DNA from: Pectinatus cerevisiiphilus
GTDB lineage: Bacteria; Bacillota; Negativicutes; Selenomonadales; Selenomonadaceae
Direction: 5' to 3'
Length of the DNA stretch: 64,000 nucleotides
NCBI RefSeq assembly: GCF_004341685.1
Contig: NZ_SMAA01000012.1
Coordinates: 1-64,000, forward strand
The notes under the pieces were generated by a model. The model made no database searches. It was not told the DNA's origin and saw nothing but the letters and a program-made list of their open reading frames with translations. The first letter of the stretch is position 1, and each line of letters opens with the position of its first letter. Position numbers and translations under genes: made by a program. Of this stretch, positions 3,538 to 15,300 are shown one piece after another.

Positions 3538-6258
3538 ATGAAACGTATTGATCGTATTTATGCGTATATGAAACAAGTCTATGAAACAGGGGCATTGCAT
3601 GAAAGAGGTCTGACAGCTGAGCAGATTGCCCAAAAACTGGACATTTTACGCAGTAATGTAAGCCGTGAATTGAACGAACTTTACAGGCAAAAGAAGATAG
3701 AAAAAGCCAACGGCCGTCCTGTCCGTTATTTTTATAGTGATGGCAAGATAAAGAACATAAAAAGACATATCGAAACTAAAAAGGTAAATGAACATAGTAG
3801 TGCTTTTAGCAAATTCGTGGGCGTAAGCCTTAAAGCACAAATAGATCAAGCAAAAGCGGCCATAATTTATCCACCAAATGGATTGCATACACTTATCTTG
3901 GGACAGACAGGTGTGGGTAAAACGTTATTTGCCCATATGATGTTTGAATATGGACGCGAAATAGGCCATTTCAAACAAAATACTCCTTTTATAACATTTA
4001 ATTGCGCGGATTATTACAATAACCCACAGCTTTTAATATCGCATATTTTCGGCCATGCTAAGGGAGCTTTTACCGGAGCTGATACTAGTGCTATTGGGTT
4101 GATAGAATCGGCTGATGAAGGTGTGCTTTTTCTTGATGAAGTACATCGCCTGCCGCCTGAAGGCCAGGAAATGATTTTTTATTTTATGGACACTGGTACT
4201 TTTAACAGGTTGGGGGAAACAAAGCGTGAACGGAAAGCGCGTGTGCTGATAATCTGTGCGACAACGGAAGATCCAGATTCTGTCCTGACCAAGACATTTA
4301 AAAGGCGTATTCCTAATATTATTGAAATACCACCATTATCAGAGCGACCTGTTGAAGAAAAACTAGAGATCACAAAACTGTTATTTTTGAGAGAATCACG
4401 TTGTATAAAAAGACCAATAAAGGTGAGCGGAGATGCAATAAAAGCGTTGATTGGGAGCATTGGACCCGGAAATGTTGGTCAGCTTGAATCGAATGTACGC
4501 CTTTTATGTGCCCAGGGTTTACTCAATATAAAAAATCGTAAATATATAGATATAGATTATCATATACTCCCTTCCCGAATAAAATCAGGTATATTGGCTA
4601 TGAGTACCAAAAGGCAGGATATGGCTGCTATTTCAGCAACTATAGGCAATGAATTTTACGTAACACCAGACAGCAAAGGTAAACTGCCAAAGGAAGTCGA
4701 AGGTGAAAAATTTAACCTTTACCAAATGGTAGAAAATAAAGTAAAAATTTTAAAGGGCGAAGGAATTGCTGATGATGTAGTACAGCAGGTAATGATTGCT
4801 GACGTAAACGCTTATTTAAAAAACTTTTATTTAAAACAAAAACAAAATGTGACTTTATCGGTACATGACCGTCTTTTAAAAATAATTGATGCAGATATGG
4901 TTGATTTTACACAACAGGTGGCTGATCTCGTCGCCGAAAAAATTAATCTGATATCAAAGGAACGCTTTTTATATGCTTTTGGTTTACATTTGAGTTCATT
5001 ATTTGCGCGAATTAAGGAAAAAAAGCAATTTCGCAATTCACTGTCAGGAATGGTTAATACTTCTACACTGGAATTTGAACTGGCACAGGAAATTAAGGCA
5101 TTAATCGAAAGCCATTATAATATAGAGATTGCCAATTCAGAAATGGAATATTTTGCGATGCTGCTTCAATCTTTAAAACAAGAGGATATAACGGATAAAA
5201 TTGTTATTGCGGTAGCAATGCATGGTAACTATACTGCCAGTTCGGTCTGTGATGTTGCCCGTAAGCTGTTCAGTGCGACAAAAGTACAGTTAATTCCTTT
5301 TGATATGCCGCTCGAATGCAAGCCAAACGAAATGCTTGAGCGGATCGTAGAAAGATTGCGGCATATTAATTGCAGCCAAGGCGTTTTGCTGATGGCGGAT
5401 ATGGGTTCGCTATGTAACTTTGGTCCACTTATACAGGAAAAGCTCAATATCTCCATTTTGACTATAAATATGGTTACTACACCGCTGGTGCTTGAAGCCA
5501 TGCGAAAGGTAGATATGGCAGGGGTTACTTTGCAAGCAGTGTATGATTCCTTGAAATCTTTTGGCGGCTATGATGACAGCACTATTTTATCTAGTAAAGA
5601 AAAGAAAGATATAATTATCACAATTTGCAGTTCTGGTGAAGGTACCGCAGAAAAATTAAAACAGATGATCTGGGATATTTTGCTCAACGCAGGAATTATG
5701 CATATTAAAATCATACCGATAAGTATATATGATATGAAAGAAAACATAAAAAAGCTGTCAGAAAAATATAATATATTAGCGTCGGTGGGGATTATGGATC
5801 CACAAATAGATGCTCCGTTTATTCCTTTGGAAACAATATTGAGCGGTAAGGACAGTGCCTTATTATGTCTTTTGCCCGGTATGGCACATACTGCGCCGCA
5901 GCGTATAGAGGACAGTAATATAGTCCTTCGCCATTTATGTGCGGATGCGCTTAAAGAAATCCTTTTATATTTAAATCCTGATAAAGTAATAAACTTGTTG
6001 ATAGAATTTGTGGAAAAATTGGAGAAAATTTTTGGTACAAAGTTTTCCAATGCACAAAAACTGAAAATAGTAGTCCATACTGGCTGTGCTTTGGAACGCC
6101 AGATAACTCACAATAGCATCAAATATAACAAGGCATTGGCAGGAGAAATCGAACCACTTAAATTGGATAAGGTAAAACGTACTGCATCTGTATTTGAGAG
6201 AATTTTGCAAATTACCCTTGATGAAGATGAATTGTCCTATATAGTGGCCATGATATGA
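3538..6258 (+). CDS. LevR-type sigma-54 activator with PTS regulatory domains
   Basis: Enhancer-binding protein that activates a sigma-54 promoter under control of PTS phosphorylation. Domains in order: an N-terminal winged-helix DNA-binding region (1-66); a AAA+ domain (about 85-345) with Walker A GQTGVGKT at 122-129, the sigma-54 contact loop GAFTGA at 176-181 and Walker B LFLDE near 197-201; a first PRD with His484; an EIIA-Man-like domain with His562 (AMHGNYTASS); an EIIB-Gat-like domain with Cys698 (CSSGEGTA); and a second PRD with His847. All phosphorylatable residues expected for the LevR/ManR family are present. Length is 906 aa. The start follows TTGGAG. The mannose-family PTS operon directly downstream, with its -24/-12 promoter, is the obvious target. 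Confidence 0.93.
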   Translation: MKRIDRIYAYMKQVYETGALHERGLTAEQIAQKLDILRSNVSRELNELYRQKKIEKANGRPVRYFYSDGKIKNIKRHIETKKVNEHSSAFSKFVGVSLKAQIDQAKAAIIYPPNGLHTLILGQTGVGKTLFAHMMFEYGREIGHFKQNTPFITFNCADYYNNPQLLISHIFGHAKGAFTGADTSAIGLIESADEGVLFLDEVHRLPPEGQEMIFYFMDTGTFNRLGETKRERKARVLIICATTEDPDSVLTKTFKRRIPNIIEIPPLSERPVEEKLEITKLLFLRESRCIKRPIKVSGDAIKALIGSIGPGNVGQLESNVRLLCAQGLLNIKNRKYIDIDYHILPSRIKSGILAMSTKRQDMAAISATIGNEFYVTPDSKGKLPKEVEGEKFNLYQMVENKVKILKGEGIADDVVQQVMIADVNAYLKNFYLKQKQNVTLSVHDRLLKIIDADMVDFTQQVADLVAEKINLISKERFLYAFGLHLSSLFARIKEKKQFRNSLSGMVNTSTLEFELAQEIKALIESHYNIEIANSEMEYFAMLLQSLKQEDITDKIVIAVAMHGNYTASSVCDVARKLFSATKVQLIPFDMPLECKPNEMLERIVERLRHINCSQGVLLMADMGSLCNFGPLIQEKLNISILTINMVTTPLVLEAMRKVDMAGVTLQAVYDSLKSFGGYDDSTILSSKEKKDIIITICSSGEGTAEKLKQMIWDILLNAGIMHIKIIPISIYDMKENIKKLSEKYNILASVGIMDPQIDAPFIPLETILSGKDSALLCLLPGMAHTAPQRIEDSNIVLRHLCADALKEILLYLNPDKVINLLIEFVEKLEKIFGTKFSNAQKLKIVVHTGCALERQITHNSIKYNKALAGEIEPLKLDKVKRTASVFERILQITLDEDELSYIVAMI

Positions 6259-6350: not shown

Positions 6351-6478
6351 TGTGTCAAAAAAGCATCGCAATGTGTCAAACATTGTGATGCTTTTTTATA
6401 ACTGTGTCATTTGTGACTGTGTCAAAAATTAAATAAGTTTCTATAAAGTCTGATAATACGCTCTTTTTAAGTGACACA
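6351..6478 (+). promoter_or_regulatory. Cluster of TGTGTCA boxes, candidate enhancer (UAS)
   Basis: The 7-mer TGTGTCA occurs four times directly (6351-6357, 6372-6378, 6403-6409, 6418-6424) and once inverted as TGACACA (6472-6478). All copies lie within 135 bases upstream of the sigma-54 promoter at 6485. That is the position expected for binding sites of the enhancer-binding protein encoded just before. Binding is inferred, not shown. Confidence 0.6.
6356..6398 (+). terminator. Terminator after the LevR-type gene
   Basis: A 13-bp stem, AAGCATCGCAATG with CATTGTGATGCTT (one G-T pair), has a 7-base loop and is followed by a T-run. The loop side contains one of the TGTGTCA boxes described next, so the element may serve both as terminator and as part of the enhancer. 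Confidence 0.75.
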
Positions 6479-6484
6479 CAATAT

Positions 6485-6499
6485 TGGCATGATTCTTGC
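6485..6499 (+). promoter_or_regulatory. Sigma-54 (-24/-12) promoter of the PTS operon
   Basis: The sequence TGGCATGATTCTTGC matches the consensus TGGCAC-N5-TTGC. The GG (6486-6487) and GC (6498-6499) doublets have the required spacing of 12 bases. It lies 40 bases before the EIIA start and directly after the gene for a sigma-54 activator. Confidence 0.88.
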
Positions 6500-6538
6500 G
6501 TATGTATTTAAGTATAGAGGTAAAGGAGGTTGAGGGAT

Positions 6539-6982
6539 ATGCTCGGTATTATTGTTGGAACTCATGGTCATTTAGCGGAAGAACTGGTAAAGACATGCGC
6601 AATGATTTGCGGACAGCCAGATAAATTAAGGACTGTTACCTTAATTCCGGGAGAAGGTCCTGACGATTTAAATATAAAATATGAACAGGCCATAAAAGAA
6701 CTTGGCATAGAAAATGGAATTATAATATTAAACGATTTATTCGGCGGAAGTCCTTATAACGCTGCCTGCCGAATTGCTGCTGCCGATGAACGCTGCGGTG
6801 TGGTAACGGGGGTCAACCTGCCAATGCTGATTGAAGTCATAAATTATCGTTTGGCTGCCAGCAGCGAAGCACCTATAACTGCTGTTTTAGCAAAAGCAAA
6901 GGAAGCTGCCAGCACAGGAATAAAAGAGTTTCACAAAAGCATGGTAAGTATAGAGACTGATGATGAAGGAGACGATTTATAA
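6539..6982 (+). CDS. PTS mannose-family EIIA component
   Basis: Cytoplasmic phosphocarrier that takes phosphate from HPr and hands it to EIIB. It begins MLGIIVGTHGHLAEEL, with the phosphorylated His at residue 9, as in the EIIA-Man family. Length 147 aa. The open frame extends upstream to a TTG at 6530, but that codon overlaps the ribosome-binding site AAAGGAGGT, which sits at the right distance from the ATG at 6539; the ATG is therefore chosen. The C-terminus is acidic (ETDDEGDDL). The stop overlaps the EIIB start as TAATG, so the two are translationally coupled. Sugar specificity (mannose, fructose, sorbose, glucosamine or other) is not evident. Confidence 0.93.
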   Translation: MLGIIVGTHGHLAEELVKTCAMICGQPDKLRTVTLIPGEGPDDLNIKYEQAIKELGIENGIIILNDLFGGSPYNAACRIAAADERCGVVTGVNLPMLIEVINYRLAASSEAPITAVLAKAKEAASTGIKEFHKSMVSIETDDEGDDL

Positions 6983-7461
6983 TGAAAATTGTATTAGCAC
7001 GTATTGATGATAGACTCATACATGGCCAAGTGGCTACTGTATGGGCGAAGGTAACTAAATGTGAAAGAATAATTGTTTGTGATGATGAAGTAGCCGCAGA
7101 CAATATCAGGGCAACACTTTTAAAACAGGTTGCGCCTCCCGGTATAAAGTCCAGTGTTGTAAATGTCGATAAAGCCATTCGTGTCTATAATAATCCCAAA
7201 TATAAAGACGATAAGTGCCTATTGCTGTTTACCAATCCGACAAGTGTTTTGCGTATGGTTGAAGCGGGCGTAGACATAAAAAGTGTCAATATAGGCGGCA
7301 TGAGTTTCAAAGAAGGCAAACGTCAAGTCAGCGGTGCTATATCAGTCGATGCAAAAGATGAAGAATCGTTTAAAAAGCTGCATGAAAAAGGTATAGAACT
7401 AGAATGTAGGAAAGTCGATACAGATAAGAAAGTTGATATAATGGAACTTTTGAAAAAATAA
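6982..7461 (+). CDS. PTS mannose-family EIIB component
   Basis: Cytoplasmic EIIB of the mannose/fructose/sorbose family, 159 aa. It accepts phosphate from EIIA and phosphorylates the incoming sugar. The family motif RIDDRLIHGQV places the active-site His at residue 14. Here EIIA and EIIB are separate proteins rather than fused as in ManX. The start ATG overlaps the EIIA stop by one base. A 97-base gap containing a hairpin separates it from EIIC. Confidence 0.93.
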   Translation: MKIVLARIDDRLIHGQVATVWAKVTKCERIIVCDDEVAADNIRATLLKQVAPPGIKSSVVNVDKAIRVYNNPKYKDDKCLLLFTNPTSVLRMVEAGVDIKSVNIGGMSFKEGKRQVSGAISVDAKDEESFKKLHEKGIELECRKVDTDKKVDIMELLKK

Positions 7462-7488
7462 TTTTATGAATGGACTCAGGTAATCTAA

Positions 7489-7517
7489 ATTTCAACTGAA
7501 TAGTTTTCAGTTGAAAT
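7489..7517 (+). other. Intercistronic hairpin between EIIB and EIIC genes
   Basis: A perfect 12-bp stem, ATTTCAACTGAA with TTCAGTTGAAAT, has a 5-base loop. No T-run follows, so it is unlikely to be a terminator. It could set mRNA stability or the ratio of soluble (A, B) to membrane (C, D) subunits. The 21 bases from 7512 also recur in the ruvA terminator (41559-41579). Confidence 0.55.
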
Positions 7518-7558
7518 AAGAACTTTATTTATAAATTAATAATTAGGAGGTATTCATA

Positions 7559-8374
7559 ATGGAAATCAATGGTGCTCAACTTATTGCAATTTTTATTGTT
7601 TCTGCTGTAGCAGGAATGGGGAGCGTACTGGATGAATTTCAAACTCACAGGCCATTAATTGCTTGTACACTCATTGGGTTTATTTTAGGAGATATAACTA
7701 CTGGGATCATTATCGGTGGTACATTGGAAATGATCGCCCTTGGTTGGATGAACATCGGTGCGGCAATGGCACCAGATGCAGCCTTGGCTTCAGTTATTTC
7801 AACAATTTTAGTTATTGCAGGACATCAAAGCATCGGTGCCGGTATTGCCATAGCAATGCCGCTGGCAGCCGCAGGGCAGGTGCTGACTATCTTATGCCGT
7901 ACAATAACAGTTTTCTTTCAGCATAAAGCCGATGGTTTTGCTGAAAAAGGCAGTCTGCGCGGTATAGACATATGCCATCTTAGCGCACTGGCACTTCAGG
8001 CATTGCGTGTAGCTATTCCTTCTATACTCGTTGCAATGTATATAGGTACAGGTGCAGTACAATCTATGCTCGATGCTATTCCTCCCGTCATCACAGGCGG
8101 CTTGCAGGTAGCTGGTGGATTCATAGTAGTTGTTGGTTACGCTATGGTAATCAACATGATGCAGGCAGGCTATCTGATGCCGTTCTTCTTCCTCGGCTTT
8201 GTCATTGCAGGTTTCACACAGTTTAACCTTGTTGCTTTTGGCGTTATCGGTTTGGTTCTGGCTATAGTGTATATTCAGCTTAACCCTAAATATAATAAAC
8301 CGGCAGTCGCGGCGGCAGCTCCTGCATCTAATGGCGGCCAAGACGATGATCTTGATGATGATTTAGATGATTGA
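7559..8374 (+). CDS. PTS mannose-family EIIC membrane component
   Basis: Membrane permease subunit of the mannose-family PTS, 271 aa. Several hydrophobic segments and the family stretch GMGSVLDEFQTHRPLIACT are present near the N-terminus, followed by the glycine-rich region GGTLEMIALGWMNIGAA. It works as a complex with EIID. The start ATG follows TTAGGAGG. The last 27 residues form an Ala/Pro linker and a very acidic tail (QDDDLDDDLDD), which is unusual for the family. The EIID ribosome-binding site overlaps its stop codon. Confidence 0.92.
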   Translation: MEINGAQLIAIFIVSAVAGMGSVLDEFQTHRPLIACTLIGFILGDITTGIIIGGTLEMIALGWMNIGAAMAPDAALASVISTILVIAGHQSIGAGIAIAMPLAAAGQVLTILCRTITVFFQHKADGFAEKGSLRGIDICHLSALALQALRVAIPSILVAMYIGTGAVQSMLDAIPPVITGGLQVAGGFIVVVGYAMVINMMQAGYLMPFFFLGFVIAGFTQFNLVAFGVIGLVLAIVYIQLNPKYNKPAVAAAAPASNGGQDDDLDDDLDD

Positions 8375-8390
8375 AAAGGAGGAAAATACA

Positions 8391-9209
8391 ATGAAAAAAT
8401 TAACTAAAAGCGACTTTTTCTGGACGTTTGTCCGTTCAAACTTACTACAGGGCTCCTGGAATATGGAACGTATGCAGGCCTTAGGATTTTGCTTTGGGAT
8501 GATTCCTATCATCAAAAGATTATACAAAGGTGATGAACGCAAACAAGCCTTAAAAAGACATCTTGAATTTTATAATACACATCCTTTTGTAACGGCACCA
8601 ATCATTGGTGTAGTTACAGCATTAGAAGAACAAAAAGCAAATGGTAAAGACATCCAGGACGGTGTTATAAACGGCCTTAAAGTTGGGATGATGGGACCTT
8701 TGGCTGGTGTCGGTGATCCTATATTCTGGGGAACGGTACGTCCTATAACAGCTTCATTAGGTGCTTCTTTCGCATTAGGCGGAAGCTTATTCGGCCCTAT
8801 ATTGTTCTTTGTCTTATTTAACTTGATTCGTCTTCTCGTGCGTTGGTATGGTATCAAATATGGTTATGAAAAAGGTACTGATGTCATTGCTGATGTTGCT
8901 GGCAATGCCCTGCAAAAAATTACTGAAGGTGCATCAATTTTAGGACTTTTTGTTATGGGTGCATTAGTTAATAAGTGGACTTCGGTACATGTCCCTATTG
9001 TTATTTCTACTATCCAAAAACAGGATGGTACTGTGGCTGTGACAACAGTGCAAACCATTTTGGATCAGTTGATGCCAGGGCTCATACCGCTTCTTTTGAC
9101 CTTCCTGTGCATTAAGCTCATGAAGAATAAAGTCAACCCGATATGGATTATTTTCGGTTTGTTTGCCGTTGGTATCCTCGGTTATTGGACTGGTATCCTA
9201 GGCATGTAA
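8391..9209 (+). CDS. PTS mannose-family EIID membrane component
   Basis: Second membrane subunit of the PTS permease, 272 aa. It starts MKKLTKSDFFWTFVRSNLL and contains the family signatures QGSWNMERMQALGF and GVGDPIFWGT, with hydrophobic segments in the C-terminal half. The frame is open from 8367, but the ATG at 8391 follows AAAGGAGG at the correct distance, and the upstream codons overlap the EIIC end. This is the last gene of the PTS operon; a strong terminator follows. Confidence 0.93.
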   Translation: MKKLTKSDFFWTFVRSNLLQGSWNMERMQALGFCFGMIPIIKRLYKGDERKQALKRHLEFYNTHPFVTAPIIGVVTALEEQKANGKDIQDGVINGLKVGMMGPLAGVGDPIFWGTVRPITASLGASFALGGSLFGPILFFVLFNLIRLLVRWYGIKYGYEKGTDVIADVAGNALQKITEGASILGLFVMGALVNKWTSVHVPIVISTIQKQDGTVAVTTVQTILDQLMPGLIPLLLTFLCIKLMKNKVNPIWIIFGLFAVGILGYWTGILGM

Positions 9210-9355: not shown

Positions 9356-10144
9356 TTAGCCGTTCATCTTAAAATAAAAAGTTTGGCTTATACGACAGCT
9401 GACAGGCTGTCCTTTTTCATTTTGGGCAGGGGAAAAAGTCCATTGACGGGCGGCAGACAAGGCTGCTTCATCGAAAGCTTCGCCACCAGAAGAAGAAACA
9501 ACCGATACTGTTTCGACTTGTCCCGAGCCATCTACGAGAAAGCTTATCGTTACTATTCCTTCAACACCGGAAGAACGCATGGTATACGGATAAGAAGGTT
9601 TAGGAGCATTCAGCGGAACAGGCAGGACCACCGCTTGGCGTGCGGTGGCATCATCTGTTTCAGCGGAATCACCTTCACCGGCTTTGCCATCATTTCCTTG
9701 ACCATTTCCCGCTCCGTGACTTTTACCATCGTTAGTGCCGGAGCCACTGCTGGCAGATGCTCTTTTTCCAGCACTGCTTTCTCCATTAGATATTTTAGCA
9801 GCAGTACTTTTATTTTTCCCTGAGAAACTGTTCTCATCAACAATTTTATGTTTATTGTCAGTCATTTTGGTAGCAGTTTGGTCATTGTTATTTTCTGTAT
9901 CGGTTGAATCGTTTTCATCCTGGCTGAATAAAATATCATCTGATGCATTATTTAAAGATCCTGTGTCGCCCGATTCACCGCCACTTGCTGTACTAATATT
10001 GGCTACATAGATTTCGGTATTAGGTTCTTGCACATTTTTACTTATATTAGAAAAAATACCATTATACGCTATTATAAGGAAAAAAATGATATGGATTCCT
10101 AGAGAGACCAGCCATCCTGTCCGATAATAATTAAAGTTTTCCAT
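9356..10144 (-). CDS. tonB: TonB-family energy-transducing protein
   Basis: Inner-membrane anchored protein that transmits proton-motive energy to outer-membrane receptors. One hydrophobic segment lies near residues 12-30. A long linker rich in Gly, Ser, Asp and Asn spans the periplasm (about 50-175). The C-terminal TonB domain (about 180-262) shows YPYTMRSSGVEGIVTISFLV and ends FYFKMNG. The linker lacks the usual Pro-Glu/Pro-Lys repeats. The ATG at 10144 is chosen because GGGAG precedes it; the longer frame from 10213 runs into the upstream gene. It is the last gene of the receptor/ABC operon. No exbB or exbD is in the window. Confidence 0.88.
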   Translation of the reverse strand: MENFNYYRTGWLVSLGIHIIFFLIIAYNGIFSNISKNVQEPNTEIYVANISTASGGESGDTGSLNNASDDILFSQDENDSTDTENNNDQTATKMTDNKHKIVDENSFSGKNKSTAAKISNGESSAGKRASASSGSGTNDGKSHGAGNGQGNDGKAGEGDSAETDDATARQAVVLPVPLNAPKPSYPYTMRSSGVEGIVTISFLVDGSGQVETVSVVSSSGGEAFDEAALSAARQWTFSPAQNEKGQPVSCRISQTFYFKMNG

Positions 10145-10199
10145 AATAATACTCCCGCTGGAAATACCGTATATTGATTTTAATGAATATGGCAGAAGA

Positions 10200-11264
10200 T
10201 TAAGGGTGTTCACCGTGTAAAATTTTTATTACATCTTCATTTGTGAGGTCTGTCCAAAGAAATTGCTTATAAAAATTTTTAACTTCATGCGGTAAATCAA
10301 GATCTTTGTATAGATCAGGATGGAATAATTGGGCTGCCCACTGAATCTGCAAAGCTTCTTCAATGCCATAGCGATCCCAGGCGAAACCACCACGTGGATT
10401 GATGTATACTTTGCCATTTTTTACAGCGGTTACATTTGCTAGCGGTGTGCTTTGTAATATATCATCCGGGTTGCAGGCAGCGTCAAGGATAATTATATCC
10501 GGATTCCATTTTATTATCTGTTCATTTGATATAGGCTGCATATTACCTTTTATTTCTGAAGCTGCATTTATACCACCGGCTGTAGTTATCCAAGTATCAA
10601 TGATCGTCTGTCTGCCATCTGCTTTTAATGGATCTATCGATTGCAAATGCAATACCTTTGGTTTATCATTTTCTGCAATTTGTGCGGTGATATCTTTTAT
10701 CCAATTCAATTTTTCGTTGAGATAAGAATTATAGGCAGCAGCGCGGTTAATGGCATCACCGCCCATTATATCCGCAGTCAGGGTTATAGCCTTTTCCATA
10801 TCGTCATAGTTATCGAAATAACAATTTACGAGGGGAATATGTACAGAGGCTAATTTATTCCTGTTTTTATCAGTGGAATCGAAGACTACATCGGGTTTAC
10901 GTGCCAGCAAGGCTTCTAAATTAAAATCATCCCCAAACGTAGATAGTGCATTATTCATTTTCGGGGCGATTTTATAAAGCCATGGGAAGTCTTTTTGCTG
11001 CATATGCGTAGCAACCATCCCATCTGCATGGTCAAGCATCACCAAAACTTCATTATGCGCATACCAGCCAACTGCATATTTTTTTATATTAGTCGGTATT
11101 TGCACCTGCTGTCCTGTCATATCTGTAATGGTACGCATAGTTTCTGGTGTGCTATCCGTTGCAGAGCTGTTATTAAGAATACTTTTGCAGCCAATAATAC
11201 TTATTGCCAGACCTATGGCAATGAGTATTATAATTATTTTTCTTATAAATTTTATATTACGCAT
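10200..11264 (-). CDS. FecB/BtuF-type ABC substrate-binding lipoprotein
   Basis: Periplasmic binding protein for a metal-chelate or cofactor importer, 354 aa. The N-terminus is a lipoprotein signal: basic start, hydrophobic run, then IIGC with Cys26 as lipidation site. The mature part begins with the class III pattern (ITDMTGQQVQIP, then KYAVGW) and contains LEALLARKPDVVF and WNPDIIILD, both typical of the FecB/BtuF fold. A region reading AWDRYGIEEALQIQWAAQLF near residue 310 resembles metal/siderophore-type members. It follows the ATPase gene by 3 bases. The ligand is not readable; ferric siderophore, haem, nickel or a corrinoid are all possible. Confidence 0.85.
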   Translation of the reverse strand: MRNIKFIRKIIIILIAIGLAISIIGCKSILNNSSATDSTPETMRTITDMTGQQVQIPTNIKKYAVGWYAHNEVLVMLDHADGMVATHMQQKDFPWLYKIAPKMNNALSTFGDDFNLEALLARKPDVVFDSTDKNRNKLASVHIPLVNCYFDNYDDMEKAITLTADIMGGDAINRAAAYNSYLNEKLNWIKDITAQIAENDKPKVLHLQSIDPLKADGRQTIIDTWITTAGGINAASEIKGNMQPISNEQIIKWNPDIIILDAACNPDDILQSTPLANVTAVKNGKVYINPRGGFAWDRYGIEEALQIQWAAQLFHPDLYKDLDLPHEVKNFYKQFLWTDLTNEDVIKILHGEHP

Positions 11265-11267
11265 AAT

Positions 11268-12053
11268 TTATTCTCCCATCATCGGGACACATGTTTTTAG
11301 GATACTTCCATCATCATTCTTTTGGGTAATAACTTTAATAGCGGCACCGTATGCTCTTTGTAAGTTATGTTCTGTCAATACATCTGCTGCTTTGCCAATC
11401 TCCGGTTCTGCATTCTTATAAAAAAGTATTACCTTAACTTCACATAAAAATGCCTGGTCGGGAAGATGCGTGGTAAATAGTACACTGATGCCGCATTTCG
11501 CCAAATGCTTTATTATCTTTAATATGCGTATTTGATTGCCAAAGTCCAAGTTTGAAGTTGGTTCATCCATAATTAAAAACATCGGTTTTTGTACTAATGC
11601 TCGGGCAATCATGACGATCTGCTGTTCACCACCGCTTAAATTATTAAAGATTTTATGTCGTAAAGATTCTATGTTTAATACTTTGAGTGTTTCTTCGGCA
11701 ATCTGCATATCTTTGTAACCAGGATGGGCAAAGATACCTAAATGGGAAAGACGACCTAAGATAATGACATCTTCCACAGACAAGGAAAATGAATGCTGGT
11801 TTATCTGCGGCACATAACCTATACGGCTGGCAATGTATTTTCGCGGCAGGGATAAAATGTTTCTATCATCTAGGGAAACTATACCGTTCAGCGGTTTTAA
11901 AAAGCCCATAATCGTTCTTAATAAAGTCGTTTTCCCTACTCCGTTTGGACCGAGTAGGGAAATTACTTCTCCTGATGTGACTGTGAAATTCATATTTTTT
12001 ACTACGCTGTTATGGGCATAGCCGCAGGAAAGATTCTTTATAGTGAGTTCTAT
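11268..12053 (-). CDS. FecE/BtuD-type ABC ATPase with a non-standard start
   Basis: ATP-binding subunit of the metal-chelate importer. Walker A is GPNGVGKTT, the signature is LSGGEQQ, Walker B is FLIMDEPTS, and the switch His lies in FTTHLPDQ. The first ATG (11993) would remove the first beta strand and the A-loop Tyr. The frame stays open upstream and encodes ELTIKNLSCGYAHNSVVKN, a normal N-terminus for this family, but no ATG, GTG or TTG occurs there before a stop. The most likely start is ATA (12053-12051), overlapping the permease TAG just as ATG overlaps TGA in coupled genes; ATC (12056) or ATT (12059) are alternatives. Family call firm, start uncertain. Confidence 0.85.
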   Translation of the reverse strand: MELTIKNLSCGYAHNSVVKNMNFTVTSGEVISLLGPNGVGKTTLLRTIMGFLKPLNGIVSLDDRNILSLPRKYIASRIGYVPQINQHSFSLSVEDVIILGRLSHLGIFAHPGYKDMQIAEETLKVLNIESLRHKIFNNLSGGEQQIVMIARALVQKPMFLIMDEPTSNLDFGNQIRILKIIKHLAKCGISVLFTTHLPDQAFLCEVKVILFYKNAEPEIGKAADVLTEHNLQRAYGAAIKVITQKNDDGSILKTCVPMMGE

Positions 12054-13081
12054 GATAATCGCCCCCGAAAACTATATAACATCAAAATGAAAAATGGAGC
12101 CCCTATTATTGAAGTTATAATACTTATGGGAATTTCTGAAGCAACAATGGAACGAGCCGCATCATCGGCTAAAAGTAAAAAAGCTGCACCTAGAATACAA
12201 GAATTAATGAGTACGATCCGGTTATCCGCACCGCTTAGCAGGCGTGCCAGATGGGGAATAACCAGACCAACCCAGCCAATTATTCCTGCTATAGCCACCG
12301 AGCTTGCTGTTAAAATGGTTGCACAGATAATGGTGATTAGCTGTAACATAGTTGCGTTTACACCTAGAGCCAAAGCTTCTTCAGAGCCAAACATCAATGC
12401 ATTTAAACGCCAGCGCAATAAAAATAAAGGTATCGCCCCGATACAAAACATAATAAAGAAAAAATCCAAATCACTGTAAGTGATATTATTCAACCCGCCC
12501 ATAAGCCAAAAAACAATGTCAGGCAATTTGCCATCAGGATCGGCCGTGTATTTAATTATGGAAATAAAAGCCTGGAATAATGTAGAAACAACAATACCCG
12601 TCAAAATAAGGGCTATGGTAGAGCTGCCACTGTTAATAAAATTGCCTATTAGATAGGTGATGAGCACGGCAGCCATTCCGGCTATAAAGGCCATAAGCTG
12701 TATTTCCATCATATTGAAATTGAATAATAAGCCTAAGGCAGCACCAAAGCCAGCACCTGCCGACGCACCTAAAAGATCCGGTGAAGCCATTGGGTTGCGA
12801 AATATGCTTTGGTAGGAGGTACCGGCTATTGATAGGGCGGCGCCTATGCCCATTGCTGCTAGGATGCGTGGCATACGAACTTCGAAAATAATGGTTGCTG
12901 CTGAGCTGCTTTCGCCTGAATATGAGCCGCTTGTTCCTTCCCATAATAAATGCAGCAGATTATTCAATGACAAATCATAACTGCCAACTAAAAAAGATAA
13001 TAAAAAAGAACCGAGCAGGATGCTGCCGAATATTAAATAGATGATTTTATTATTATGATGCTTTGTATTTTGCATTCTCAT
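12050..13081 (-). CDS. FecCD-family ABC transporter permease
   Basis: Inner-membrane permease of the metal-chelate importer, 343 aa with about ten hydrophobic segments. Family motifs are visible: RMPRILAAMGIGAALSIAG near residue 70, NPMASPDLLGASAGAGFG near 95, and GIIGWVGLVIPHLARLLSG near 260, the last being the loop that contacts the ATPase. The frame is open to 13153, but the ATG at 13081 follows AGGAG at a normal distance. It lies 71 bases after the receptor gene and overlaps the ATPase start. Confidence 0.92.
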   Translation of the reverse strand: MRMQNTKHHNNKIIYLIFGSILLGSFLLSFLVGSYDLSLNNLLHLLWEGTSGSYSGESSSAATIIFEVRMPRILAAMGIGAALSIAGTSYQSIFRNPMASPDLLGASAGAGFGAALGLLFNFNMMEIQLMAFIAGMAAVLITYLIGNFINSGSSTIALILTGIVVSTLFQAFISIIKYTADPDGKLPDIVFWLMGGLNNITYSDLDFFFIMFCIGAIPLFLLRWRLNALMFGSEEALALGVNATMLQLITIICATILTASSVAIAGIIGWVGLVIPHLARLLSGADNRIVLINSCILGAAFLLLADDAARSIVASEIPISIITSIIGAPFFILMLYSFRGRLS

Positions 13082-13152
13082 ATAATAACTACTCCTGAAA
13101 ATTATGCTGCATATATTGGGGCAATATGTGCGGTTTATATAAAATAAGTCCA

Positions 13153-15282
13153 TTAAAAATTATAATCAAACTGGATACCGTATACAGCGCCTTCATTATA
13201 CCAATATCCTTTTACAGCTCCTGTAAAATCCGGTCTGTCAACATCACGGTGGTTGGTAGCATAATGCTGGTTCGTTATATTATCGCCAAATATAGAAACG
13301 GTAAGATTATCATTGATCTTTTTACTTAGACTGGCATTCAGCGTAGTGAAATCACCTACATTTGTGGTATCCGTAAGCGCGTTTTTAAAATTGCCGACAT
13401 GCAGTAAAGATAAAGACCCTGAATAATCACCTTTATCATACATAAGGGAAGCCGTGTACTGGGAATGGGGCACAAGTGCCGAGCTGGGATTATTACCGGC
13501 AGTAAAATAGGTATAGCCTGTATTGTAACTGAGATATTTATTTATCATACCGTGTAGTGATAACTCCAAGCCTTTGCGTTTTACATCGCTTTGGGCATAT
13601 GTAGTATATGAATCTATAGCAGATTTTGCTGCATTGCCATTGACATCAATACCTTGTTGGACGGCACTTTTGTCATTTTTAATATCATAATAAAAACCTG
13701 TGAGGGAGGCATTGAAAGCAGGGGTATAATGCGCTGTAACGCCAATTTCGTATTTAAGACGTTTATCGTCAGCAAACTTTGCATTGAGATCGGGGACATG
13801 TTTTCCGTTAACTAGCCGGTCACCTACGATATAACTGTTGGGCGGTGTTTCTGTGTAAGAAGTACGTGCAAATAATTCGTATGTGTCATTGGCCTGATAG
13901 GCAGCGCCTAGGGCAATGCTTTTTGCCGAACCCAGCCATTCATCGTGGATACGTTTTGGATTGCTTCCGGCACCGCTGTATTTTTGTGCGCTGTCGGTTA
14001 CGTGATGGCGGTCTATACGCATGGCTCCATCCCAGGTTAATTTTTTACCAACTTTTTGTTGATATGATGCATAAGCACTATATATTTGTTCATCAAATGG
14101 GCCAAAGCCATAAAAATAAATTGCGCCTTCTGGTGATTTCCATTTCAATGCTTGCAGGCCTATTTTTGTGACAGAATTTTTAGTCTGCCAGGCTTGCCAC
14201 AAATTTCCTTCGTATACACTTTCGTCTTCTTGGTTATATTCATCCGTAAAAACCTTTCCGGTGGTATTATTCATGATGCCATTATGTTTTGCTACGAAAA
14301 GGCCATTTAATTTATTGTAATTTAAGGAAAGTCCGGTAGTAGAACCGTTAGACCAGTGTTTATAAAATGTATATCCTAAGATAGCAGCTTTTACTGGATC
14401 ATATTTAGCTACATAATCAGGATCGGCGATTACACTTGTACTGCCACGGACAAATCCCATTTGTGATCCGGACATGCCGTCATTATAATAAAAAGAAAGT
14501 TCATTATCGGTAGTTTTAGATTCTTTACCTATTTTAAATAAGGCAGCATTGTAAGCATAATCATTATTCCAACCGCTTTTACCGGCAGAGCTTTTATGTG
14601 CGTAGGCAAAATCATAAGAAAGTCCATTAGCATCTTTATCACCAATATGTATGCTTTGTCCGTTAGTCGAAAAATTACCTGTAGAAATAGAAAGATTTCT
14701 CGTTTGCTTGGTAGATTTCAGGGTTTTAATGACTACAAAACCTTGGTTCGGTGCGCCGGTAGGACTCTTAAAGGCTTCTATCGGTCCCATTGTAAGAATA
14801 GTCGAATCTCGCACAATCGCTATTGAATCGATCATTGATACAGGCAGGTTACTGAGCATTCCCCTTGCCTGCTGTGAATAGACGATATAGGAACCATCTA
14901 TAATGAGGCCTAGATTGTCACCGCCTCTGTCCTGCAACGTTTCCCGCACCTTTACTCCTTGATACGTATAACTTATGCCCATGGCTCTTTGCAGGATATC
15001 TAGGACTGAGTGGGGATGCATCCTTTCTATTTGCTCATGTGTTATTACCTCTGTACCAGCTTTGGAGCTTTCGGGTATAGATAACCTACTGTAGGCAGGT
15101 TCTTTGTAGTCACTTCCGTCGTGGTATGCTGCGTTGTCCTTGTTTTCTTTTTCGCCGACGATTGTCTGCGCAGGCAGTTCTACCTGCGTAACAGACTCTG
15201 GACTATCCGCATAAACAGTACCGCCTATTGATAATGATATTCCCAGCATTAATGGCAACAGCTTGCGATTTACATCCTTCAC
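13153..15282 (-). CDS. TonB-dependent outer-membrane receptor
   Basis: Outer-membrane gated porin that imports a scarce ligand using TonB energy, 709 aa. A signal peptide of about 26 residues ends VYA. A plug domain follows (about 60-180) with EVITHEQIERMHPHSVLDIL and the YVGVKVR-like segment TYQGVKVRETLQDRGG. The rest is a beta-barrel with alternating aromatic strands, ending in an aromatic C-terminus (GIQFDYNF), as required for BAM insertion. The GTG at 15282 follows GGGGGAG; the longer frame from a TTG at 15297 overlaps that site. It is the first gene of the receptor/permease/ATPase/lipoprotein/TonB unit. Its presence shows the cell has an outer membrane. The ligand is unknown. Confidence 0.92.
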   Translation of the reverse strand: MKDVNRKLLPLMLGISLSIGGTVYADSPESVTQVELPAQTIVGEKENKDNAAYHDGSDYKEPAYSRLSIPESSKAGTEVITHEQIERMHPHSVLDILQRAMGISYTYQGVKVRETLQDRGGDNLGLIIDGSYIVYSQQARGMLSNLPVSMIDSIAIVRDSTILTMGPIEAFKSPTGAPNQGFVVIKTLKSTKQTRNLSISTGNFSTNGQSIHIGDKDANGLSYDFAYAHKSSAGKSGWNNDYAYNAALFKIGKESKTTDNELSFYYNDGMSGSQMGFVRGSTSVIADPDYVAKYDPVKAAILGYTFYKHWSNGSTTGLSLNYNKLNGLFVAKHNGIMNNTTGKVFTDEYNQEDESVYEGNLWQAWQTKNSVTKIGLQALKWKSPEGAIYFYGFGPFDEQIYSAYASYQQKVGKKLTWDGAMRIDRHHVTDSAQKYSGAGSNPKRIHDEWLGSAKSIALGAAYQANDTYELFARTSYTETPPNSYIVGDRLVNGKHVPDLNAKFADDKRLKYEIGVTAHYTPAFNASLTGFYYDIKNDKSAVQQGIDVNGNAAKSAIDSYTTYAQSDVKRKGLELSLHGMINKYLSYNTGYTYFTAGNNPSSALVPHSQYTASLMYDKGDYSGSLSLLHVGNFKNALTDTTNVGDFTTLNASLSKKINDNLTVSIFGDNITNQHYATNHRDVDRPDFTGAVKGYWYNEGAVYGIQFDYNF

Positions 15283-15300
15283 TCTAATCTCCCCCAATGT

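Follow-up and report, generated by a model that had tools for sequence, protein, structure and literature searches.

Sigma-54 activators of the PRD type control sugar uptake in many Firmicutes, and the mannose PTS is a bacteriocin receptor in lactic acid bacteria and Listeria. LevR of Bacillus subtilis, like the activator described below, is a PRD-containing sigma-54 activator with a mannose-family PTS as its target, and its domains follow the order wHTH–AAA+–PRD–EIIA–EIIB–PRD. The UAS of the lev operon is reported to lie at about −125, and it is established that LevR activity is set by PTS phosphorylation of the PRD/EII domains (PMC10864463). ManR of Listeria and MptR of Enterococcus share the domain family and the type of target operon with our activator. 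MptR and RpoN are both required for mannose-PTS expression and growth on mannose, and the UAS of the sister activator LpoR has been described as 'as-yet-unidentified' (PMC8262876). CelR of Clostridium acetobutylicum and Bacillus thuringiensis is a PRD-type activator with three UAS, but it serves a different PTS family. At the CelR promoter, mutation of two of the three UAS lowers activity and mutation of all three leaves nearly none, the sites having been predicted from the motif of Nie et al. 2016 (PMC10864463). UAS motifs of Clostridium PRD-type activators were published in 2016 by comparative genomics for the CelR, LevR, AtlR and GfrR groups, as cited in PMC6615313.

The window, a stretch of 64,000 nucleotides from Pectinatus cerevisiiphilus, contains a protein and a promoter of these known kinds, together with an array of short repeats between them:

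3538–6258, + strand: PRD-type (LevR/ManR-like) sigma-54 activator of 906 residues, with an N-terminal wHTH, an AAA+ domain with GAFTGA, a PRD, an EIIA-man-like domain and a second PRD match
3649–3687, + strand: codons of the predicted recognition helix, residues 38–50 in the AF2 model (S39, 3652–3654; R43, 3664–3666)
6351–6357, + strand: direct box 1, TGTGTCA, at −160 to −154 from the predicted start
6357–6397, + strand: intrinsic terminator of the activator gene, with an 18-bp stem and the 5-nt loop GTCAA (−24 kcal/mol, z −7.4)
6372–6378, + strand: direct box 2, TGTGTCA, at −139 to −133, 21 bp from box 1
6403–6409, + strand: direct box 3, TGTGTCA, at −108 to −102, 31 bp from box 2
6418–6424, + strand: direct box 4, TGTGTCA, at −93 to −87, 15 bp from box 3 and out of helical phase with it
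6472–6478, − strand: promoter-proximal inverted box, TGTGTCA, at −39 to −33, 5 bp from TTGGCA
6484–6500, + strand: −24/−12 sigma-54 promoter TTGGCATGATTCTTGCG, matching TTGGCAYN5TTGCW save for the last base
6539–6982, + strand: mannose-family PTS EIIA, TIGR00824 above cut-off, with its ATG at 6539 and AAAGGAGG at 6522–6529
6982–7461, + strand: PTS EIIB, TIGR00854 above cut-off
7559–8374, + strand: PTS EIIC, TIGR00822 above cut-off
8391–9209, + strand: PTS EIID, TIGR00828 above cut-off

The four-gene mannose-family PTS operon (6539–9209) thus adjoins the activator gene, and the −24/−12 promoter ahead of it, which an earlier note on this DNA had called probable, is a good sigma-54 element. We counted from the −12 C at 6499 to predict a start at 6511. 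A generic −24/−12 scan with two mismatches allowed was uninformative (34 matches against 40 expected). An equivalent −24/−12 element lies between the activator and PTS genes in most orthologous loci, and a sigma-54 gene was found in the genome. A second, weak match to the sigma-54 DNA-binding domain (G000:C4:151772-151963; E 2e-7, with stops) adjoins an activator gene and is possibly a gene remnant.

The activator contains the Pfam Sigma54_activat domain (PF00158, 1.1e-39), in which GAFTGA is present in the translation, followed C-terminally by PRD (PF00874) in two stretches and EIIA-man (PF03610, 5e-10) at residues 557–667. Pfam returned no match to an EIIB-gat-like domain at 0.001; an EIIB-like ITICSSGEGTAEKL stretch and the candidate phosphorylatable His/Cys residues were read by eye only, and a PRD-like VVHTGCALER was read from the translation in the C-terminal part. 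The protein scores below the curated cut-off of DagR (NCBIfam NF047795; 458 bits against 1400). Its closest relative is the activator of P. haikarae, at 87% identity, and a ManR-like relative in Pediococcus is 39% identical over the full length. The solved structures that matched this type of activator cover only the AAA+ and EIIA parts. In the AF2 model the N-terminal wHTH is formed by helices 3–17, 27–34 and 38–50 and a wing, with a pLDDT of about 95 in helix 38–50; the nearest solved folds found by Foldseek are the Z-alpha and MarR winged helices, which match weakly (E 2e-3 to 2e-2).

The coordinates and shuffle statistics bear out the original reading of four direct copies and one inverted copy of TGTGTCA upstream of the promoter. 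When the 226-bp intergenic sequence was shuffled 5000 times with its dinucleotides preserved, no shuffle had as many as three copies of TGTGTCA, and 5 had five copies of some non-trivial 7-mer. Fivefold repetition of a 7-mer within 226 bp occurs nowhere else in the window, and only 4 copies of TGTGTCA lie outside the array in its 64 kb. In pattern searches of the whole 2.63-Mb genome, direct TGTGTCA pairs 8–38 bp apart were confined to the array (3 matches). Set against the LevR system, with its UAS at about −125, the window has several short direct boxes in the range −90 to −160 and a fixed inverted box at the −24 element.

Related genomes had been proposed as the place to look for such clusters. 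The exact TGTGTCA is lacking at many orthologous loci, and a search by exact counts suggested no conservation because most relatives carry TGTATCA instead. We aligned 79 orthologous promoters by their −24 elements, together with the two Pectinatus promoters that are unlinked to an activator gene, and found that the array is conserved at orthologous mannose-family PTS promoters, mostly as TGTATCA. It is common to Selenomonadaceae, Clostridium, Bacillus and Paenibacillus, with direct boxes at about −90 to −200 and one inverted box about 4 bp upstream of the −24 element. The form (A)GTGTATCA(A) prevails in most genera (Selenomonas, Mitsuokella, Clostridium, Bacillus, Paenibacillus and Propionispora), and TGTGTCA is the form of Pectinatus and one Clostridium clade. 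With a matrix derived from the proximal boxes, the 15.4 kb of upstream sequence gave 147 direct and 34 inverted sites scoring at least 9, compared with 8.8 and 4.7 in shuffles.

Two Pectinatus species show how closely the boxes follow the promoter. No PTS genes adjoin the activator gene of P. haikarae or that of P. frisingensis, and a search for a proximal box with a promoter gave a single match in each, 360 kb from the activator gene in P. haikarae (L122, G002:C1:8925) and on a contig other than the activator's in P. frisingensis (L121, G003:C29). Both matches lie in arrays of four boxes ahead of the orthologous PTS operon. A rearrangement has split regulator from target in these species, and the boxes, being kept at operons distant from the activator gene, travel with the promoter.

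The inverted copy had been counted as a fifth, equivalent enhancer box. The alignment contradicts this: it is a separate, nearly invariant element at a fixed distance from −24, recognisable in 80 of the 81 loci (L071 lacks one). Its best match is offset by −13 from TTGGCA in 68 loci and by −12 to −15 in all 81. Such a constant distance, and a place just where the polymerase has its upstream edge (−39 to −33), would also suit an extension of the −24 element that sigma-54 polymerase reads and the activator does not; the base at the centre of the box, considered below, speaks to this.

The direct boxes are placed with regard to the DNA helix. Gaps between neighbouring direct boxes are preferentially 10–11, 20–23, 28–32, 41–44 or 52 bp, and for a 10.5-bp period they give a vector strength of 0.67 among activators of less than 90% identity (50 spacings) and of 0.70 when one locus is taken per 70%-identity activator cluster (21 spacings, p about 4e-5). 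At the strictest thinning (less than 60% identity) it is 0.55 for 9 spacings, which is not significant (p 0.07). Relative to the promoter, too, the direct boxes keep helical register (R 0.52, 47 boxes, p about 3e-6, less than 70% identity). In the window itself, the spacings of 21 and 31 bp are in phase, and the 15 bp from box 3 to box 4 break it.

The two forms of the box differ at the centre base, and we found that this base follows the activator. In 76 of 76 scorable loci (63 A-type, 13 G-type) the proximal box has the same centre base as the majority of the distal boxes, which would be explained most simply if a single protein reads every box of a promoter. Activators of the G-type have the helix LRSNVSRELN, with S39 in 13 of 14 and R43 in 14 of 14. 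Those of the A-type have LRNNVSKELN or LRNNVSMELN, with N39 in 67 of 67, accompanied by K, M, A or L43 (mostly K or M) and by R43 in only 3. A ranking of the 906 columns by how well they tell the G-type activators of Clostridium and Selenomonadaceae from the A-type puts 43 first and 39 fifth; columns 668, 797 and 489, with conservative hydrophobic swaps, are about equal to 43 in this respect, and none is in the DNA-binding part. The helices of twelve loci (L153, L154, L155, L156, L158, L159, L160, L164 and L170–L173) were read only after the rule had been set, that of L160 being taken from L031. All 12 orthologues agree with it, L154, L155 and L170/L171 being near-duplicates of other loci. A promoter-like match in a further genome (G462), which no activator gene accompanies, was disregarded. 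Four genomes hold both types, and in each of them every helix adjoins its matching promoter:

G027: L153 of A-type, L015 of G-type
G563: L154 of A-type, L155 of G-type
G037: L156 of A-type, L014 of G-type
G768: L173 of A-type, L096 of G-type

L173 is the sister of the Clostridium G-type clade, and its helix region, LDILRNNVSKELNTLCR, differs from that of L172, LDILRSNVSRELNTLCR, only at positions 39 and 43.

These pairings bear directly on whose sites the boxes are. Were they to belong to some other regulator, a catabolite protein or another repressor or activator, with the sigma-54 activator binding elsewhere, the TTTGTGAC next to box 4, which loosely recalls TGTGA-type sites, would be in keeping with it; yet box type co-varies with the recognition helix of the activator, even within the four genomes that have both versions, and the position and phasing of the array are tied to the sigma-54 promoter, which makes this reading extremely unlikely. 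It is also very improbable that the proximal box is an extension of the −24 element, since its centre base goes with the distal boxes and the activator residues in every scorable locus and sigma-54 would not switch with the paralogue in the two-type genomes. The conserved array and its co-variation with the helix instead argue for an operator belonging to the activator itself, a LevR/ManR-type UAS of variant specificity. Judged from sequence comparison, the TGTGTCA boxes are thus very probably the UAS of the PTS operon at 6539–9209, read by the wHTH of the adjacent activator, in keeping with the enhancer role that the earlier note had assigned to them. Its suggestion of a new recognition motif does not hold as it stands: TGTGTCA is not an isolated motif, being a one-letter variant of the family-wide TGTATCA box, which may already have been described for some group among the 2016 Clostridium motifs. 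Text searches of the literature gave no relevant paper for a TGTGTCA or GTGTATCA box with sigma-54 or PTS, and no description of the proximal inverted element, the phasing or a 39/43 code.

Box type has switched twice among the orthologues and three times when paralogues are included, each time with R43 and a residue other than Asn at 39, in trees built without the HTH. With so few switches, a sign test that takes the tree into account is powerless (p 0.25). Activators with N39 and R43 are mixed: L088, L097 and L102 go with TTGTATCA and L093 with a diverged GTATGCC, so R43 alone does not decide the box type, which suggests intermediate or alternative specificities. Paralogues at 33–35% identity fit partly, L004 (N39 M43) having TGTATTA boxes and L035 (A39 R43) and L163 (D39 R43) TGTGTT boxes. 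Locus L157 (G022:C1:2500300-2505900), near an A39 R43 activator, looks like a promoter duplication: a TGTGTT-type array accompanies each of two sigma-54 promoters that are almost identical and lie about 1.45 kb from each other. The Pediococcus acidilactici relative (L117) has the helix ARSNVSKELN, whose S39 K43, compared with S39 R43 in the window, is a combination seen nowhere else; a PTS promoter was not found within its locus. Distant relatives at 35–38% identity (L132–L147), which were excluded from the 39/43 code, have partly palindromic AATACAC/GTGTATT half-sites with other helices. In five of them (L133–L136 and L141, about 36–38% identical), AATACACATATGTGTATT palindromes lie just 3' of the activator gene and the helices are such as HRANVSSDLN or QRTNASSDLN, so that the GTGTATT half-site stands in another arrangement.

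As to mechanism, dimers or hexamers of the activator would occupy one face of the DNA at the phased direct boxes (about −90 to −160), and the AAA+ ring would reach the sigma-54 polymerase at −24/−12 by looping. The precedent of CelR makes an activating role of several boxes plausible here (PMC10864463). The protein would sense sugar flux, and have its activity set, through phosphorylation of its PRD and EII-like domains by the PTS. Within the G-type box, the guanine is probably read by Arg43, for which Ser39 would leave room. The inverted proximal box would be a contact of the same protein beside the polymerase, either as an anchor of the loop or as a limiting ('governor') site. A negative site of this sort, acting by occlusion once the PTS is saturated or EIIB has phosphorylated the activator, would be well served by the nearest possible place to the polymerase and by a single inverted copy in nearly all promoters, an anatomy that a loop anchor predicts identically; we regard a negative role as possible, if rather doubtful. 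Returning to the loop, we tentatively propose, with slightly less than even confidence, a composite promoter in which phased direct half-sites and an obligatory inverted half-site about 4 bp from −24 are joined by a DNA loop, together with a convergently evolved two-residue code (39/43) that permits duplicated activators to work without cross-talk. What is gained, as far as sequence can tell, is the definition of a half-site and of the way its copies are arranged, an element fixed close to the promoter, and a pair of residues whose exchange is predicted to change specificity. Residues 39 and 43 would allow the cognate promoter to be predicted from the sequence of an activator, and unlinked regulons to be assigned.

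The array also overlaps the terminator of the activator gene. Folding placed box 2 partly in the terminator loop, as had been noticed at the outset: TGT falls within the stem and GTCA within the loop. The T-run of this hairpin pairs with an A-run, which is why the automatic scan missed it. Many terminators in Selenomonadaceae carry two boxes in inverted orientation, ATACAC...GTGTAT, at the base of the stem, and such features, with the hairpin over box 2, could mean that transcription or the hairpin couples expression of the activator to occupancy of the enhancer. Terminators overlap a box in 19 of 31 cases, against 12.9 expected by rotation, and nearly all of these come from one family, the Selenomonadaceae, and may therefore represent a single inherited arrangement. 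The overlap is real, but its frequency is only weakly above chance and phylogenetically clustered, which makes it weak evidence for function, and P. haikarae and P. frisingensis keep their arrays apart from the activator gene. A functional coupling is accordingly very improbable.

On the other side of the operon, the minus strand at 9356–15297 encodes a TonB-like protein, a periplasmic binding protein, an ABC transporter and a TonB-dependent receptor. This is an outer-membrane nutrient uptake cluster, as expected in a Gram-negative-walled Firmicute.
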